64,000 nucleotides of DNA. Source: Cycloclasticus sp. (GTDB lineage Bacteria > Pseudomonadota > Gammaproteobacteria > Methylococcales > Cycloclasticaceae). Of this stretch, positions 51,599 through 57,056 are shown in pieces (position 1 is the stretch's first letter; each line of letters starts with the position of its first letter). Position numbers and translations under genes: made by a program. Where the stretch lies: the NCBI GenBank assembly GCA_040743155.1, contig JBFLJU010000001.1:1426001-1490000 (forward strand), read 5' to 3'. Under the pieces are notes generated by a model. It was given only the letters and a program-made list of their open reading frames with translations. It made no database searches and was not told the DNA's origin.

Positions 51599-54592
51599 AT
51601 GGAAAAAGAACTACTAGAAAAAATTGATCAGATACTTCATTTACCTTTATCTGATTACCATAAGTTAAAACTTGTCTTACGCCAAACGCTTAAAGCACTG
51701 CGTGCAGATAGATGCTGGTTACTTTACCCTTGTCGCCAAAACGCCGACAAGTTCCTCGTTCCCATTGAAGAAACAACGCCTGATTATCCAGGTGCCAGTC
51801 AGATAAAAGCATATATACCTGCCGGTGTAGTATTTGAAGATATTGCTCGAGTCACACTGACTTCCACGGAGTCTGTTAGCTTTGATTTGTCATCACCCCT
51901 GTGTCAAGTTGCAGCAAGTGGCTATGAACTATACAAAATAAAATCTCAAATGGCCTGTCAAATACCCATCAAGGGGGCTGAGACTTGGGCCATAGGAATT
52001 CATCATTGCGCAGAAAGCCAAGAGCATTCTGACGAAGAAAAAAACCTATTAACCGCCGTTGCAAAAAGAATAAGTCACACGCTCAAAGGCCTACTTGACA
52101 TTCCCAACTTAGTTAACGCTGCAGAATTGTCTACCGAGATTCTTGATAACGGCCCTTTAGCACAAGTTATATATAATCTTGAGCGTCAAGTTGTTTATGC
52201 CAATAACGCGTATTGTGATATGAACCAACGCCCATTATCTGAAATGATTCATCAATATGGAGAACAGTTTTTAAGCAAAGAAAAGCAACACCTATTCAAA
52301 GAATTTTTCGACGAAATTAAAGCAACTGGTCATGGTTTCGCTAAAGGTCAAAAAATCACCGGAGACGGGCAGCTCATTCACACCGAAAACACCGGCACAC
52401 TTATAACTTACAACGGTGAGCCCCATTACCTTATTACCGCGAAAGATATTACCCGTGAAACAAAAAGTCGTAACGACTTACATGACACCCTAGATATACA
52501 ACACGCTATTCTTGAAGCGACTGATGATGGCGTACTTGTTGAGGACAGCCACAGAAACATCATTGCAATCAATCAAAATTTTTATGATTACTTCAAAATA
52601 ACCCCGGTCCAAAATAATGGCGACATTAAAACACTGGATTTATTAACCGCTGGTTTACCCGTCTTGCATAACCCAGAAGAAATCAAACCTATCGTCACAA
52701 AACTTCACCCAACGTCTAAAGAGAGAAACCTAGCTACCCTCCACTTATTGGACGGCACAATTTTACACATGGATTCATTTCCGCTGATTCATCTTGACCA
52801 GATTAAAGGCCGGGTTTGGTATTTTAAAAATATCACTAAAACGGTACGTTCCACCCAAGCCTTAGAAAACGCTCTCGATATTCACCGTGCCATCATGGAC
52901 GCCTCAGACGATGGCCTATTGGTTGAAGACACAAACAGGCGAATCATTAGCGTTAATCAAGTTTTCCTTGAAACCTTCGACATCCAAATTGAAGCAAGTC
53001 AGATTAAAGGAAAAACAGCACCGGAGGTCTTCACAATGGGTGCTCACCTTATATCCAACACTGAAGAAGCTAACAATATAGTTTTCAATCTCTCGCCAAC
53101 AAAAAATGAAAAGACAAGCACTAAAATATATTTAAAAGATGATTCTATTTTAGACCTAACGTCGTTTCCATTAATACGTGATAACACCATTCACGGGCGA
53201 GTTTGGTATTTTAAAAACATTACTGAAAAACATAATTTAACTGAAAAGTTAAGTTTTGAAGCCACGCATGATTCACTGACAAAATTAACAAACCGACGTG
53301 GCTTTGATGAAAAGTTAAAACAGGTCATCAAGCAGATAGAGACCGATAATGCCGCACACGCCTTACTGTATTTAGATTTAGACCAGTTTAAAATCATCAA
53401 TGACACCTCTGGTCATAGCGCAGGAGACATTGCCCTCATTGAAGTGAGTAAGCTTCTGAGTAGTTTACTTCGTCAAGCAGATCTTCTGGCTCGCGTTGGC
53501 GGTGATGAGTTTTCTATTCTTCTACCAAATTGTTCGCTTAATATGGCAAAGAAAATTGGAGAAAAAATATGTCAGTCAATTGATGAATACGTATTTTCTT
53601 GGGAAGGCAATGAGTATCACTTAGGTGTTAGCATCGGCATCATTAGTCTGGATTGCACTGTAGACTCTTATGAAGACGCTTTGAAATTAGCCGACACCTC
53701 ATGCTACCTTGCTAAAGAAGCAGGCCGAAACCGCATTCACGTTCATACCACATCCGACCAAGCTGTTATGCAACGGCTCCAACAAGGCAACGTTGTTAGC
53801 CAAATTCAAGAAGCATTGAGAACTGACCAGTTTGTCTGCTATCTACAAAAAATTTGCCCCGTTAAAACCGGTAACGATAAATACTCCAACTTAAGCATTT
53901 ATGAAGTACTCGTTCGAATGCTCGACCAAAAGGGAGTCCTCGTGGCCCCGTTCGTTTTCCTACCCGCCGCCGAACGCTACAAGTTAATGCACAAAATTGA
54001 TCATTGGGTTATAGAAAATAGCATTCAAAATATGGCTGAGATTCAAGATCAGATCGGCTGCCTTAGCATCAACCTGTCTGGGCAAACTATCGCTCATGAA
54101 GACACCTATGACGTCATCGTCAATGTTATTGAGCGTTCCGGCATGCCTACTAATAAACTGTGTTTTGAAATTACTGAAACGGCCGCTATCTCGAATCCAC
54201 AAGTAGGCATTGAATTCCTTAATAAACTACGCGCGCTCGGCTGTAAAATTGCCCTTGATGACTTTGGCACCGGTTTATCCTCATACGAATACTTAAAAAA
54301 ACTACCCGCTGATATTCTAAAGATTGACGGTCAATTTATTAAAGGCATGCTGACGGATGAACTAGACCTTGCAATGGTAAAATCCATTAATGAGATTGGC
54401 CACCTCATGGGTAAAAAGACCGTTGGTGAATTTGTAGAAAATGCCGAAATTTTTGACCAATTAAAAGAAATCGGCGTTGACTACGCGCAGGGCTATCATC
54501 TACATAAACCTTGCAGCATGCAAAGTGTAATAGAGGAACAACGGCTAGCGACTGGTACGACTAATCTAAATCTGCAGTCAACGAGTCTCTGA
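51599..54592 (+). CDS. GAF-PAS-PAS-PAS-GGDEF-EAL cyclic-di-GMP signalling protein
   Basis: A 997-residue cytoplasmic sensor without membrane segments. Domains: GAF-like (about 20-165), PAS (about 175-295), two closely related PAS domains (about 298-420 and 424-545), GGDEF (about 550-710) and EAL (about 735-980). The PAS pair looks like an internal duplication (both end with GRVWYFKNIT). The cyclase motif GGDEF is intact. The phosphodiesterase has EVL in place of EAL but keeps its glutamate, plus EITETAA, DDFGTGLSSYEYL and GEFVEN, so both activities are possible. The 3' end overlaps the convergent DUF3501 gene by 32 bp. Signal sensed is unknown. Confidence 0.93.
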   Translation: MEKELLEKIDQILHLPLSDYHKLKLVLRQTLKALRADRCWLLYPCRQNADKFLVPIEETTPDYPGASQIKAYIPAGVVFEDIARVTLTSTESVSFDLSSPLCQVAASGYELYKIKSQMACQIPIKGAETWAIGIHHCAESQEHSDEEKNLLTAVAKRISHTLKGLLDIPNLVNAAELSTEILDNGPLAQVIYNLERQVVYANNAYCDMNQRPLSEMIHQYGEQFLSKEKQHLFKEFFDEIKATGHGFAKGQKITGDGQLIHTENTGTLITYNGEPHYLITAKDITRETKSRNDLHDTLDIQHAILEATDDGVLVEDSHRNIIAINQNFYDYFKITPVQNNGDIKTLDLLTAGLPVLHNPEEIKPIVTKLHPTSKERNLATLHLLDGTILHMDSFPLIHLDQIKGRVWYFKNITKTVRSTQALENALDIHRAIMDASDDGLLVEDTNRRIISVNQVFLETFDIQIEASQIKGKTAPEVFTMGAHLISNTEEANNIVFNLSPTKNEKTSTKIYLKDDSILDLTSFPLIRDNTIHGRVWYFKNITEKHNLTEKLSFEATHDSLTKLTNRRGFDEKLKQVIKQIETDNAAHALLYLDLDQFKIINDTSGHSAGDIALIEVSKLLSSLLRQADLLARVGGDEFSILLPNCSLNMAKKIGEKICQSIDEYVFSWEGNEYHLGVSIGIISLDCTVDSYEDALKLADTSCYLAKEAGRNRIHVHTTSDQAVMQRLQQGNVVSQIQEALRTDQFVCYLQKICPVKTGNDKYSNLSIYEVLVRMLDQKGVLVAPFVFLPAAERYKLMHKIDHWVIENSIQNMAEIQDQIGCLSINLSGQTIAHEDTYDVIVNVIERSGMPTNKLCFEITETAAISNPQVGIEFLNKLRALGCKIALDDFGTGLSSYEYLKKLPADILKIDGQFIKGMLTDELDLAMVKSINEIGHLMGKKTVGEFVENAEIFDQLKEIGVDYAQGYHLHKPCSMQSVIEEQRLATGTTNLNLQSTSL

Positions 54593-55142
54593 TGTTATCC
54601 GCTATCTTAATTTTCTGTTGGTACGCCGCATGATCAACACCCGCATGAATTGCGGTACCTTTTTTAGCCGCTTCCACCATTTTGTCCGTTAGTTCAAAGC
54701 GTAAAAAATGCACCGATGAGGTTTTTTCTTCTGTTTCGCGTTCCAAATCTTCGTTTGCAATCGGAAAAACTTTTTCATAACCATCAACCTGAACCCAAGT
54801 CGCACGTTCGATACCAATCATCTTTCCCAGTGCCACTTTACGATCATCAATATCATCAAACTGAATCATCATCGTTACCTTCCAGTTGCTACCATCAGGA
54901 ATTAACGGATTGTACGTTTCAATTTCTTCCATAATGCCAGCCGATTCGAATATCTTTTCTGCACGTAGCATCTCTTGAACTTGGTAATGCATAGTCAAGT
55001 TATCTTCGAAGTGTAAGCTGATATTTTCACCTATCTGCACAATTCTATTTTTTTTATGTGCCCGCACGTTTTTTCTAAACTCAGGTCTTAGGTTTGAATA
55101 TTCTTCCAAACTATATAATTCATCTTTTACTAATTTCTTCAT
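54561..55142 (-). CDS. DUF3501 family protein
   Basis: A 193-residue soluble protein with the DUF3501 pattern: N-terminal LYSLEEYSNLRPEFRKNV, the strand IVQIGENISLHFED, then RAEKIFESAGIMEEIETYN and DGSNWKVTMMIQFDD. No enzymatic motif or cofactor site is evident. It is the third gene of the rubrerythrin/HdrD-like cluster, starting 16 bp after the Fe-S gene, and shows recurring linkage to such genes in other proteobacteria as far as I recall. Its function is unknown. Confidence 0.85.
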   Translation of the reverse strand: MKKLVKDELYSLEEYSNLRPEFRKNVRAHKKNRIVQIGENISLHFEDNLTMHYQVQEMLRAEKIFESAGIMEEIETYNPLIPDGSNWKVTMMIQFDDIDDRKVALGKMIGIERATWVQVDGYEKVFPIANEDLERETEEKTSSVHFLRFELTDKMVEAAKKGTAIHAGVDHAAYQQKIKIADNIRDSLTADLD

Positions 55143-55158
55143 TATCGGTTCCTTGGGC

Positions 55159-56484
55159 TTAAATCCCGTATGCTTGTCGTAACAAGCTGATTGGGTTCTT
55201 TACGTTTGCAGTATCGTCTAGAGCTTCAGCAATATGATCTGCAGCCATTGGACAGTCACTGGAGAAGACGTCTGCTTCGGCTTTTTTTACACGATTGATG
55301 ACTGGCTTGGCAATTTTTTTGGAAATCTCGTGGAACTCGCTCTTTAGCGCATAAGTCCCATCGTGCCCCGAACATCGTTCAATCGCATTAACCGATGTAT
55401 TTGGGATCAACTCCAACAACTCTTTTGTCTTTAAGCCAATATTTTGTACCCGCAAATGACAAGCGACTTGGTACGAAACAGTACCTAATGCATCTTTAAA
55501 GTTTGTTTCTAATAAACTCGCTTTATGCCGAAGCATCAAATATTCAAATGGATCAAAAATAGCATCACGAACTTTTGCAACATCCGCATCATCTGGAAAC
55601 ATCAACGGTAGTTCCTGCTTAAACATCAACACACAAGAAGGCACCGGCGCAATCACATCCCAACCATCATTAATTAATTTGATAAGCTGGGGAATATTGT
55701 TATTTTTAAGCCGTTCAACTTCCTCTAAGTCGCCAAGTTCAAGCTTAGGCATGCCACAGCAACTCTCTTGAGTTGCCATCGTAACGGCTACTTTATTGTG
55801 CTCAAGCACTGCGACTAAATCATTCACTAAATCGGGGCGATTGTAGTTGCCATAACAAGTCGTGAAAATAGCTACTTTACCCGTGGTCTGATCACAAGTA
55901 ACAGGACTAATCGCTGCGTGCTCGCGTTTGTTAAACTGTTTTCTCGCGGTATCACTGTGATAGTCAGGAATAACTGCATCAGGGTGAATCCCCAGTTGGC
56001 TGTCTAATAAACGTCTAACCGCGCTATTCTTATTTGCAGCATTTACCACATTGACCAGAATAGGAATGGACGCTAATTTACCTAGCTTATCGGTTGACGT
56101 AATCAATTTATCACGTCTTTTCACTTCATCTTTTTTATACTTAACCGCTTTCGCGCGAAGCATTAAGTGGGGGAAATCCAAGTCCCATTCATGAGGCGGC
56201 ACATAGGGGCATTTCGACATAAAGCACATGTCACATAGGTAGCAATTATCCACCACATCCCAATAAACTTTTTTATCGACACTGTCGAGTTCCATCGTTT
56301 CCGATTCATCAATGACATCGAATAACAGAGGGAATGCATTACATAAGTTAAAGCAACGTCGACATCCGTGGCAGATATCAAACACACGGTCTAATTCGTG
56401 AAATAAATTGGCTTCGTTATAGAAATCTGGATTTTTCCAATCCAGTGGATGACGTGTTGGAGCTTCTAAACTACCTTCTCTCAT
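55159..56484 (-). CDS. HdrD/GlpC-like Fe-S oxidoreductase (CCG domain)
   Basis: A 441-residue protein with two [4Fe-4S] ferredoxin-type sites: Cys38, 41, 44, 48 (CHGCRRCFNLC) and Cys81, 84, 87, 92 (CYLCDMCFMSKC). Two CCG-type cysteine-rich domains follow. The first has a full CCG at Cys242-Cys243 (ESCCGMPKLE). The second has Cys342 and CSGHDG at 371, a one-cysteine variant. There is no transmembrane segment. It resembles heterodisulfide reductase HdrD and GlpC subunits and probably carries electrons to or from a partner. Position between rubrerythrin and DUF3501 suggests a role in peroxide reduction, which is inference. Confidence 0.88.
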   Translation of the reverse strand: MREGSLEAPTRHPLDWKNPDFYNEANLFHELDRVFDICHGCRRCFNLCNAFPLLFDVIDESETMELDSVDKKVYWDVVDNCYLCDMCFMSKCPYVPPHEWDLDFPHLMLRAKAVKYKKDEVKRRDKLITSTDKLGKLASIPILVNVVNAANKNSAVRRLLDSQLGIHPDAVIPDYHSDTARKQFNKREHAAISPVTCDQTTGKVAIFTTCYGNYNRPDLVNDLVAVLEHNKVAVTMATQESCCGMPKLELGDLEEVERLKNNNIPQLIKLINDGWDVIAPVPSCVLMFKQELPLMFPDDADVAKVRDAIFDPFEYLMLRHKASLLETNFKDALGTVSYQVACHLRVQNIGLKTKELLELIPNTSVNAIERCSGHDGTYALKSEFHEISKKIAKPVINRVKKAEADVFSSDCPMAADHIAEALDDTANVKNPISLLRQAYGI

Positions 56485-56503
56485 GTTCTATTCTCCAAGA
56501 AAA

Positions 56504-56529
56504 AAGGAGGGCACGCGCGTACCCTCCTT
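56504..56529 (-). terminator. Intrinsic terminator/attenuator after rubrerythrin
   Basis: The stem AAGGAGGG-AC/GT-CCCTCCTT with one wobble has a short GCGC loop. On the minus strand it is followed by a T6 run (complement of aaaaaa at 56499-56504). It lies between rubrerythrin and the Fe-S gene, so read-through would set a higher rubrerythrin to Fe-S protein ratio. Confidence 0.78.
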
Positions 56530-56545
56530 CTTAAATTACAGCAAA

Positions 56546-56965
56546 CTAAGCGTTTAAAGAATCTAACGCCTTTTGGAAACGGTTCGCGTGTGAACGTTCC
56601 GCTTTTGCTAATGTTTCAAACCAATCAGCAATCTCATCGTGACCTTCATCACGTGCTGTTTTAGCCATACCTGGGTACATGTCTGTGTACTCATGAGTTT
56701 CGCCAGCAATAGCTGCTTTAAGGTTGTCTTCTGTAGCACCAATCGGTAAACCAGTCGCTGGATCACCTGTTTCTTCTAAATACTCAAGATGACCGTGCGC
56801 ATGGCCCGTTTCACCTTCAGCAGTTGAACGAAAAACAGCTGATACATCGTTATATCCTTCGACGTCTGCTTTGCTTGCGAAATATAAATAACGACGGTTT
56901 GCTTGTGACTCACCTGAAAACGCGTCTTTTAAATTCTGTTCTGTTTGAGAACCTTTAAGTGACAT
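56546..56965 (-). CDS. Rubrerythrin (diiron domain only)
   Basis: A 139-residue ferritin-like diiron protein that reduces hydrogen peroxide. Ligand motifs are visible in GESQANRRY, EGETGHAHGH, GETHEYTDMY and KAERSHANRF. The usual C-terminal rubredoxin domain (two CxxC pairs) is missing; the protein contains no cysteine. It therefore needs an external electron donor, perhaps the adjacent Fe-S protein. A strong promoter with two palindromes lies upstream. Confidence 0.95.
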   Translation of the reverse strand: MSLKGSQTEQNLKDAFSGESQANRRYLYFASKADVEGYNDVSAVFRSTAEGETGHAHGHLEYLEETGDPATGLPIGATEDNLKAAIAGETHEYTDMYPGMAKTARDEGHDEIADWFETLAKAERSHANRFQKALDSLNA

Positions 56966-57002
56966 AGTAATTCCTCTTTGTTGAATGATATCAATTCTAC
57001 CT

Positions 57003-57017
57003 TTAGACTAGGTCTAA
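57003..57017. promoter_or_regulatory. Inverted repeat TTAGAC-N3-GTCTAA, candidate operator
   Basis: A perfect 6-bp inverted repeat with a 3-base spacer, 11 bp downstream of the rubrerythrin -10 hexamer and so at or just after the transcription start. A repressor here would block the promoter. The regulator cannot be named from sequence; a redox or Fe-S-type (Rrf2) factor is one possibility. Confidence 0.5.
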
Positions 57018-57027
57018 GAGTAAGTTC

Positions 57028-57056
57028 AAGATACGTTACTGATTAAAACATGTCAA
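57028..57056 (-). promoter_or_regulatory. Sigma-70 promoter of the rubrerythrin cluster
   Basis: On the minus strand a perfect TTGACA (57051-57056), 17-bp spacer, then TATCTT (57028-57033). The start codon is 63 bp downstream. Confidence 0.78.

Follow-up and report, generated by a model that had tools for sequence, protein, structure and literature searches.

In the sections of the published account drawn on here, the aerobic-type rubrerythrin system is described as three genes encoding a rubrerythrin without a rubredoxin domain (RBR), a GlpC-like Fe-S protein named RFO and a DUF3501 protein, occurring together in 185 of 4461 genomes, and RFO is put forward as a substitute for the missing rubredoxin domain (Cardenas, Quatrini, and Holmes 2016, PMC5114695). 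The same sections place RBR and DUF3501 without RFO in the Thermoproteales and the RFO gene of Hydrogenobacter thermophilus apart from the other two, and pose the donor of the RFO-less forms as a question still to address. A fusion of DUF3501 with RFO has been published for Nitrosomonas, and certain protists carry the trio as well, with mitochondrial targeting predicted. Ferriperoxin of H. thermophilus is described as a peroxidase reduced by NADPH and FNR in vitro and needed for aerobic growth of that organism (PMC3317640). In B. pseudomallei, bpss1837, bpss1838 ("ferredoxin") and bpss1839 (rubrerythrin) each rise ~3.3-fold with H2O2, and the rubrerythrin binds Mn, Co and Fe promiscuously at partial occupancy. 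In the rubrerythrin-like, Irr-regulated mbfA of alphaproteobacteria, the Irr box overlaps the transcript start and this is taken as a repressor position in the part of the report considered (PMC3413700).

The RBR-RFO-DUF3501 Locus

The window, the whole 64,000-nucleotide stretch of Cycloclasticus sp. DNA that was analyzed, contains the following three open reading frames, found where the initial annotation had placed them.

56546..56965, minus strand: RBR, aerobic-type rubrerythrin, 139 amino acids, a diiron ferritin-like domain alone, no cysteine
55159..56484, minus strand: RFO, GlpC/HdrD-like Fe-S protein, 441 amino acids, 16 cysteines
54561..55142, minus strand: DUF3501 protein, 193 amino acids, no cysteine

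Neighboring genes in the window are parE, farnesyl diphosphate synthase and dxs (NCBIfam-confirmed). RBR matches the Pfam Rubrerythrin model (PF02915) with 105 bits, above the cut-off, and its Pfam matches are confined to Rubrerythrin/Ferritin-like models, bearing out the earlier description of a rubrerythrin devoid of both rubredoxin domain and cysteine. It is 82-96% identical to the RBRs adjoining RFO in the compared genomes, and its best PDB matches include the B. pseudomallei rubrerythrin (PDB code 4di0) and sulerythrin (PDB code 1j30). RFO matches the CCG model (PF02754) with 54.7 bits, above the cut-off, and the 4Fe-4S Pfam models match it only below their cut-offs. The DUF3501 protein matches PF12007 with 235 bits against a cut-off of 25, and its fold, an Ig-like β-sandwich with a helical insertion, is like that of a member of the same family (PDB code 3fjv, 45% identity, Z 26.1). 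This is the only clear structural match, the next rows (Z < 7, CrdA and a GAE domain among them) lying within the usual background, and a functional assignment by fold was set aside.

The three genes are an aerobic-type rubrerythrin operon of the kind already described, with nothing different in gene content; the locus shares with the published system, in the parts considered, the three families, the three-gene arrangement, the missing rubredoxin domain and the GlpC-like RFO (PMC5114695). RBR falls in one group with the likewise rubredoxin-less ferriperoxin, the difference being that RFO does not figure as a donor in the part of the ferriperoxin account considered (PMC3317640). The RBR-promoter palindrome and OxyR-like sites, the hairpin after RBR, the changes in the second CCG site of RFO and a short ferritin-like neighbor appear to be additions to the known trio, and none was met in the literature, the search having been mostly aimed elsewhere. 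The hairpin and the histidines of the second CCG site were not met in the sections of PMC5114695 considered, and the strings "Irr," "OxyR," "regulat" and "encapsul" are absent from its main text.

Redox Motifs of RFO

Two ferredoxin-type motifs, C38-C41-C44-C48 and C81-C84-C87-C92, precede two CCG sites in RFO, CCG1 (C210/C242-C243/C284) and CCG2 (C342/C371-S372/C411), the latter being the CSGHDG variant of the initial annotation. Its description of the protein as soluble is plausible because no 19-residue stretch exceeds a mean Kyte-Doolittle value of 1.21. Fifteen cysteines are invariant in all 142 alignment rows, and in 142 of 142 rows CCG2 lacks two of the five GlpC-set cysteines. His-374 and His-343 are present in 140 of the 142 rows, being absent from G450 and G547. 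The solo RFO of genome G358 retains both, so these histidines are not strictly tied to the partner proteins, and a strict tracking of partners by the pair is ruled out.

RFO is a CCG-domain protein closest to GlpC, as expected of RFO, and on these matches would be of the COG0247 type. It is 27% identical to GlpC of E. coli K-12 (anaerobic glycerol-3-phosphate dehydrogenase subunit C) and like it has a pair of [4Fe-4S] motifs at the N terminus and a pair of CCG domains. However, the second CCG cysteine set is full in GlpC, with Cys-330 and Cys-372 where RFO has Ser-372 and Ala-414; RFO scores below the NCBIfam GlpC cut-offs (223.6 versus 278 and 151.7 versus 279.9 bits), and in the window its neighbors are RBR and DUF3501 rather than glpAB. 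HdrD, which we take to be defined by a full cysteine set at each of its two CCG sites (noncubane clusters), differs from RFO in the same second site. The AF2 model of RFO has a pLDDT of 89.3, and its CCG part resembles LutA (an integrative model) and HdrB in fold (TM 0.61-0.65 for HdrB, depending on the target). Against PDB sequences, a single-sequence search with RFO gave no match at E 0.01 and a profile search gave a best match no better than E 0.1.

Predicted Promoter, Candidate Operator and Intergenic Hairpin

Three candidate regulatory features accompany the genes.

57028..57056, minus strand: predicted RBR promoter, TTGACA-17-TATCTT, by conservation
57002..57018, no strand assigned: candidate palindromic operator TTTAGACTAGGTCTAAG, an Irr/ICE-like box at the RBR promoter
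56500..56529, minus strand: intrinsic-terminator-like hairpin in the RBR-RFO gap, a candidate attenuator

TTGAC and TATCTT are common to all five of five aligned upstream sequences, one of them with TTGACT; the promoter prediction is supported by this conservation, because a promoter scan yielded fewer promoter-like sites than in shuffled sequences. Of 119 unique regions upstream of RBR, 89 carry the palindrome, compared with 0-2 in 20 shuffles, and TTGAC lies 37-43 nucleotides ahead of it in 56 of 85. We take the ICE consensus to be TTTAGA-N5-TCTAAA and presume that the palindrome is an Irr/ICE box, although at the inner positions it mostly has C..G in place of the A..T of ICE. With the half-site pattern that we assumed for OxyR, 11 of the 119 regions have an OxyR-like site instead of the box and 1 has both (Fisher p 5e-7), and 19 have neither. 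A gene for Irr adjoins the trio in five loci (L138, L135, L137, L136 and L229); in the window together with 400 kb of its own genome no match to irr was found. Across 888 kb scanned, three palindrome sites lie away from RBR, at two loci, upstream of katG. The arrangement resembles that of mbfA in having an Irr box at the promoter, but mbfA is another protein (PMC3413700), whereas here the box precedes an RBR-RFO-DUF3501 operon, mostly in gammaproteobacteria.

The 71 nucleotides around the hairpin fold with -27.2 kcal/mol (z -5.3). By a strict test, terminator-like hairpins occur in 36 of 115 RBR-RFO gaps (mean 2.2 and maximum 5 in shuffles) versus 1 of 108 RFO-DUF3501 gaps, the latter gaps being shorter. 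The hairpin of the window is missing from the output of the simple scan that gave the promoter-like sites.

Linkage of the Three Genes across Genomes

Two samples were surveyed, one of the phylum (249 genomes) and one of the class (369 genomes). At the family-level thresholds of the phylum sample (RFO E < 1e-100, RBR identity at least 82%), DUF3501, RFO and RBR are each found in the identical 13 of 249 genomes. In the class sample DUF3501 and RFO are each found in 160 genomes and RBR in 158, with 153 of 369 carrying all three and 166 carrying any; co-occurrence of DUF3501 with RFO has a hypergeometric log10 p of about -93, the related genomes being non-independent. Among 80 genome-contig loci, 69 have three complete genes, and all 69 are ordered RBR-RFO-DUF3501 on one strand. 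The linkage of the trio is far beyond chance. The survey proposed in the initial annotation thus returned association where its absence would have counted against the idea, and the cluster is a conserved unit of a lineage tied to peroxide defense, in which, apart from the diiron protein, redox motifs occur in RFO alone. The notion that RFO stands in for rubredoxin is not new, since it is stated in the published account (PMC5114695).

Thirteen of the 166 class genomes are without at least one gene at these thresholds and all were kept in the counts. Re-examination suggests apparent gene loss at contig ends in five (G593, G429, G496, G446 and G533), while in G403 the cluster is probably broken up and G519 seems to be affected by low genome completeness (72%). 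Others look real: G308 has RBR-DUF3501 without RFO; G450 and G547 have an RFO-like gene only, with neither DUF3501 nor aerobic-type RBR; G358 has its solo RFO beside chemotaxis-type genes, with RBR and DUF3501 not found; and G277 has RBR alone. G323, with RBR, the short ferritin-like gene and DUF3501 at a contig end, is perhaps a real exception, and at locus L041 RBR-RFO is present with DUF3501 absent within its 13 kb. Long open frames at L187-L191 that resembled a DUF3501-RFO fusion are other-frame artifacts.

Proposed Function and Alternative Explanations

The operon probably, though with modest confidence, encodes a cytoplasmic hydroperoxide-reducing module in which RFO is a dedicated electron carrier to RBR, under Irr/Fur-type repression and with an attenuating hairpin. 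By analogy with relatives, RBR would act as a peroxidase, reducing H2O2 or an organic peroxide at its diiron site, and RFO would supply its electrons, which may pass from the two [4Fe-4S] motifs and the full CCG1 site to the remodelled CCG2, whose three cysteines and His-374, perhaps with His-343, would form the exit side toward RBR. The DUF3501 protein, cysteine-free in this copy, would be a non-redox accessory, and an adaptor or metal-loading role for it is suggested because it stays with RBR where RFO is absent. A putative Irr/Fur-type repressor at the palindrome would hold the operon silent until a change in peroxide or iron status, and attenuation at the hairpin may yield more RBR than RFO and DUF3501, which would suit a catalyst that draws on a shared carrier.

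Against this reading stand the in vitro reduction of a rubredoxin-less RBR by FNR alone, the RFO-less G308 and Thermoproteales, the solo RFO of G358 with its two histidines, the RBR-RFO pair without DUF3501 at L041, the many RBR-RFO gaps whose hairpin fails the strict test and the 19 upstream regions with neither box nor OxyR-like site. ORF clustering of the 80 flanks returned mostly housekeeping synteny, and no recurrent electron source was seen among the 22 commonest clusters (crude ORF calls, clusters named by eye). RBR may instead be fed by general carriers (FNR or ferredoxin), with RFO and DUF3501 acting elsewhere, for instance in the reduction or loading of its metal site. For ferriperoxin, NADPH and FNR suffice in the part of that report considered (PMC3317640), and the initial statement that the usual route of electron delivery is closed to this rubrerythrin goes too far for that reason. 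The promiscuous metal binding of the B. pseudomallei protein means that metal selection may need help, and both RBR-DUF3501 pairs without RFO and the solo RFO of G358 exist. However, 153 of the 166 genomes with any of the genes have the full trio, and the [4Fe-4S] motifs and CCG site of RFO resemble a multi-center wire; supply by general carriers is on balance rather unlikely.

An iron-sequestration module, with RBR as a peroxide-using ferroxidase, sometimes alongside EncFtn, and RFO driving iron reduction or release, is suggested by a short EncFtn-class ferritin (s-FLP, PF22277, best PDB match 3k6c) that separates RFO from DUF3501 at 16 of the 80 loci and by the Irr-type (iron) regulator adjoining five. 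Co-occurrence, however, does not tie EncFtn to the trio: it is present in 16 of 40 trio genomes versus 12 of 40 trio-less genomes, lies beside the trio in only 7 of those 16 and was not found in the window's genome. The links to katG and to OxyR-like sites speak for peroxide, making this explanation quite improbable. No encapsulin shell near s-FLP was evident by eye in the flanking ORFs of 8 loci. That RFO is a thiol/disulfide reductase of the HdrB/HdrD kind with no part in RBR catalysis would agree with the LutA- and HdrB-like fold of its CCG part but not with a CCG2 short of two of the five GlpC-set cysteines or with its genomic tie, which is to RBR, and we consider it very improbable.

A more detailed form of the dedicated-carrier reading, offered tentatively, is a peroxide operon under Irr-type repression, whose RFO would be a GlpC descendant with CCG2 rebuilt as a three-cysteine, one-histidine site passing electrons to RBR with the help of DUF3501, some lineages having switched to OxyR and others having recruited s-FLP. 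If so, some orphan s-FLPs would gain an operon home outside encapsulins. For the electron supply of the rubredoxin-less rubrerythrins of aerobes, RFO stands as a suggestion in the published sections considered (PMC5114695); the question is now more testable, with one RFO site singled out (C342, C371, C411, H343 and H374) and a likely operator named that is usable for expression tests. G308 must use another donor and G358 offers a solo RFO. The presence of the trio in some protists means that the mechanism would be of wider use.

The RBR-RFO-DUF3501 operon of the window

The window holds three open reading frames on the minus strand at the positions reported in the initial annotation. They encode a rubredoxin-less rubrerythrin (RBR), a GlpC/HdrD-like Fe-S protein (RFO) and the companion protein DUF3501, in that order with intergenic gaps of 61 and 16 nt, and RBR is preceded by an Irr/ICE-like palindrome, termed the box.

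57002-57018, RBR upstream, Irr/ICE-like palindrome
56546-56965, minus strand, RBR, ORF with a clear Pfam match
55159-56484, minus strand, RFO, ORF with a clear Pfam match for the CCG domain
54561-55142, minus strand, DUF3501, ORF with a clear Pfam match

RBR has no cysteine, as previously noted, and DUF3501 likewise has none, with RFO having 16; the ferredoxin motifs of RFO give Pfam matches below cut-offs only. The source genome is a single contig of 2.56 Mb, and the closest RFOs found (78-80%) come from one 'Methylococcaceae' MAG and two Cycloclasticus MAGs. A second PF02915 match in the same genome, a 213-amino acid ORF (L002), is not matched by the window's RBR in tblastn and by eye resembles the Coq7 type.

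Co-occurrence of the three genes

The proposal that RFO replaces rubredoxin as electron donor to RBR came with a suggested check, a survey of whether rubredoxin-less RBR accompanies RFO and DUF3501, and this association is found in both the phylum and class samples. In the phylum sample of 249 genomes each of the three genes is found in an identical set of 13 (RFO E below 1e-100; RBR at least 82% identity). At E 0.001 the RFO profile and the RBR query match 38 and 56 other genomes, respectively, and these extra matches are taken for GlpC-like proteins and other rubrerythrins because they are far weaker, the best being 4e-48 for RFO and 54% identity for RBR. In the class sample of 369 genomes (maximum E 1e-80 for RFO and 1e-55 for RBR) DUF3501 and RFO are each present in 160 and RBR in 158, with all three in 153 and any of the three in 166. 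The trio is complete in 69 of 80 contig loci and is collinear on one strand in all 69, the other 11 having a gene cut, split or missing from the stretch; in one locus (L041) DUF3501 is absent within its 13 kb.

The 13 of 166 genomes with an incomplete set were looked at again individually, and in seven the missing gene seems to reflect a contig end, a broken cluster or an incomplete genome. In genome G308 (loci L313, L249 and L239) RBR adjoins DUF3501, and neither RFO in the genome nor the box was found; G308 is a natural case where RBR needs another electron donor. Genomes G450 (L227) and G547 (L230) have an RFO-like protein and lack DUF3501 and an aerobic-type RBR, their sole RBR being 46% identical with an open frame that could fit a rubredoxin domain. 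Genome G358 carries a solo RFO (L312, 3150-4490, on a contig of 35 kb) whose neighbors, identified by eye, are a thiL-like gene and chemotaxis-type genes, and RBR and DUF3501 were not found in this genome.

Remodeled CCG2 site of RFO and fold of DUF3501

The RFO alignment comprises 148 distinct rows, of which 142 are RFO or RFO-like and six GlpC-type (L139-L143 plus L186, which is GlpC of E. coli). The eight ferredoxin-type cysteines, the four cysteines of the first CCG site (CCG1; C210, C242-C243 and C284) and C342, C371 and C411 of the second (CCG2) are invariant in all 148 rows. GlpC differs in having cysteines at the sites matching RFO Ser-372 and Ala-414, which occur in none of the 142 RFO rows; position 372 is Ser in 137, Ala in three, Thr in one and Ile in one, and position 414 is Ala in 140 and Gly in two. 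His-374 and His-343 each occur in 140 of the 142 rows, missing only in the G450 and G547 proteins, whose genomes lack the partners, aerobic-type RBR and DUF3501. Both CCG2 histidines are kept in the solo RFO of G358, which argues against a strict tie between histidines and partners. We infer that the remodeled CCG2 binds a cluster and has a His among the ligands. The CCG part of the RFO AF2 model (pLDDT 89.3) has a fold like that of LutA (integrative model; E 2e-9) and of HdrB.

The DUF3501 AF2 model (pLDDT 92.7) has the fold of 3fjv (Z 26.1), a β-sandwich with inserted helices, and beyond 3fjv the fold search gave no match above background. Among 136 distinct DUF3501 rows 94 have no cysteine, 34 have one and eight have two, which makes it unlikely that a conserved cofactor is bound through Cys. 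Since DUF3501 stands beside RBR even without RFO, a tentative guess, held with low confidence, is that it acts as an adaptor or metal-site helper.

A short ferritin-like gene in some loci

An EncFtn-like gene encoding about 100 amino acids lies between RFO and DUF3501 in 16 of 80 loci.

L019 7349-7651, s-FLP (short EncFtn-class ferritin) gene
L031 7355-7657, s-FLP gene
14 further loci, s-FLP gene

Both EncFtn-like proteins scanned match PF22277, and the top PDB match is 3k6c. The C terminus is similar to the motif that PMC11202242 gives for its 's-FLP' class, whose encapsulation is called unclear there; no encapsulin shell is evident by eye in the flanks of eight s-FLP loci. EncFtn is not obligate to the trio, because it is over the cut-off in 16 of 40 trio genomes versus 12 of 40 others, is beside the trio in seven of those 16 (counted from coordinates) and was not found in the window's genome. 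The box is absent from the EncFtn loci of this 40 + 40 genome comparison. In genome G323 (L250) RBR, s-FLP and DUF3501 are in a row with RFO not between, and the contig ends inside DUF3501.

Upstream palindrome and candidate regulators

Four close relatives share with the window a TTGAC(A/T)-TATCTT that precedes the palindrome upstream of RBR. The upstream set consists of 119 distinct 300-nt regions (67 from the 80-locus set and 52 from further genomes), reduced from 143 by removing those identical over the last 120 nt. TAGA-N5-TCTA is present in 89 of 119 regions, whereas none of 20 dinucleotide shuffles has it in more than 2 (range 0 to 2), and the top 5-nt palindromic half-site, TTAGA-N5-TCTAA, is present in 86, any half-site in shuffles reaching at most three. 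The box consensus is TTTAGACTNAGTCTAAA; most of the gamma sites differ at the inner bases from ICE, the Irr-box consensus. TTGAC lies 5' of the box in 85 of 89 regions, at 37-43 nt in 56, 10-13 nt in 12 and 23-24 nt in 11, distances at which the box overlaps the predicted promoter, consistent with a repressor site.

The strict palindrome occurs once within the window, and none was found in 400 kb of the window's own genome. In 888 kb of the 80 loci 62 copies are upstream of RBR and four elsewhere, one of the latter lying 50 nt 5' of an RBR that is split (L064). Two tandem palindromes are immediately 5' of katG in L007 (2906-2940), and in L044 (2209-2223) a palindrome is 530 nt before katG, adjoining and preceding an apparent RBR 5' remnant; both katG genes are over NCBIfam catalase/peroxidase cut-offs, share the strand of the RBR operon and immediately precede it. 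For the rubrerythrin-like gene mbfA an Irr box is described where the transcript begins (PMC3413700).

Fur-type genes directly 5' of RBR in five loci (L135-L138 and L229) are all over the NCBIfam IrrA cut-off, that of L229 being below the cut-off of a second Irr model, and in L229 the box sits between irr and RBR. A gene over the IrrA cut-off also lies beside an isolated RBR (L169), and irr is adjacent, within the stretch examined, in four of the eight phylum-sample trio genomes outside the class. The 30 of 119 regions without the box tend to carry an OxyR-like site (ATAG-N7-CTAT) in its place: the site is present in 11 of these 30 and in one region with the box (Fisher p 5e-7, inflated by relatedness), with a mean of 0.37 regions in 30 shuffles, and 19 of 119 have neither. 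Genes near RBR in L061, L070, L021 and L247 are oxyR-like (36-39% identity to E. coli OxyR); the first three loci carry the OxyR-like site, and there OxyR is the top NCBIfam model at 237-241 bits, below the cut-off of 329.

Hairpin between RBR and RFO

The RBR-RFO gap of the window contains a hairpin and T tract (-27.2 kcal/mol, z -5.3), with the stem kept with changed letters in L222, L003 and L005; in L004 the terminator scan detected no hairpin. Terminator-like hairpins are present in 36 of 115 RBR-RFO gaps (median 100 nt; shuffles mean 2.2, maximum 5) and in 1 of 108 RFO-DUF3501 gaps (median 45 nt; shuffles mean 0.6). Given their position after RBR, synthesis of RBR probably exceeds that of RFO and DUF3501, at least in the hairpin-bearing subset.

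Relation to the published system

The trio was named the aerobic-type rubrerythrin system, and the name RFO coined, by Cardenas et al. 2016 (PMC5114695), where all three genes co-occur in 185 of 4461 genomes and compensation by RFO for the missing rubredoxin domain is suggested. The trio is also described in Acidihalobacter (PMC7760498), in Sideroxydans clustered with oxyR and dps (PMC7852563) and in Andalucia, where mitochondrial targeting is predicted for it (PMC7050145). Ferriperoxin, of the aerobic-type rubrerythrin group, acts as a peroxidase with NADPH and FNR and is required for growth in air (PMC3317640). In B. pseudomallei H2O2 raises bpss1837 3.37-fold, bpss1838 ('ferredoxin') 3.31-fold and bpss1839 (rubrerythrin) 3.36-fold (PMC4175613); these are taken to be its trio because PDB 3fjv is a DUF3501 protein of B. 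pseudomallei. In the literature consulted, where the searches touched EncFtn but none of the other three topics, the regulatory box, CCG2 histidines, hairpin and s-FLP link were not met. The window's trio is a member of this published system, system and idea both having been in print before the initial annotation, and RFO as a substitute for the rubredoxin domain stands as a suggestion already made there.
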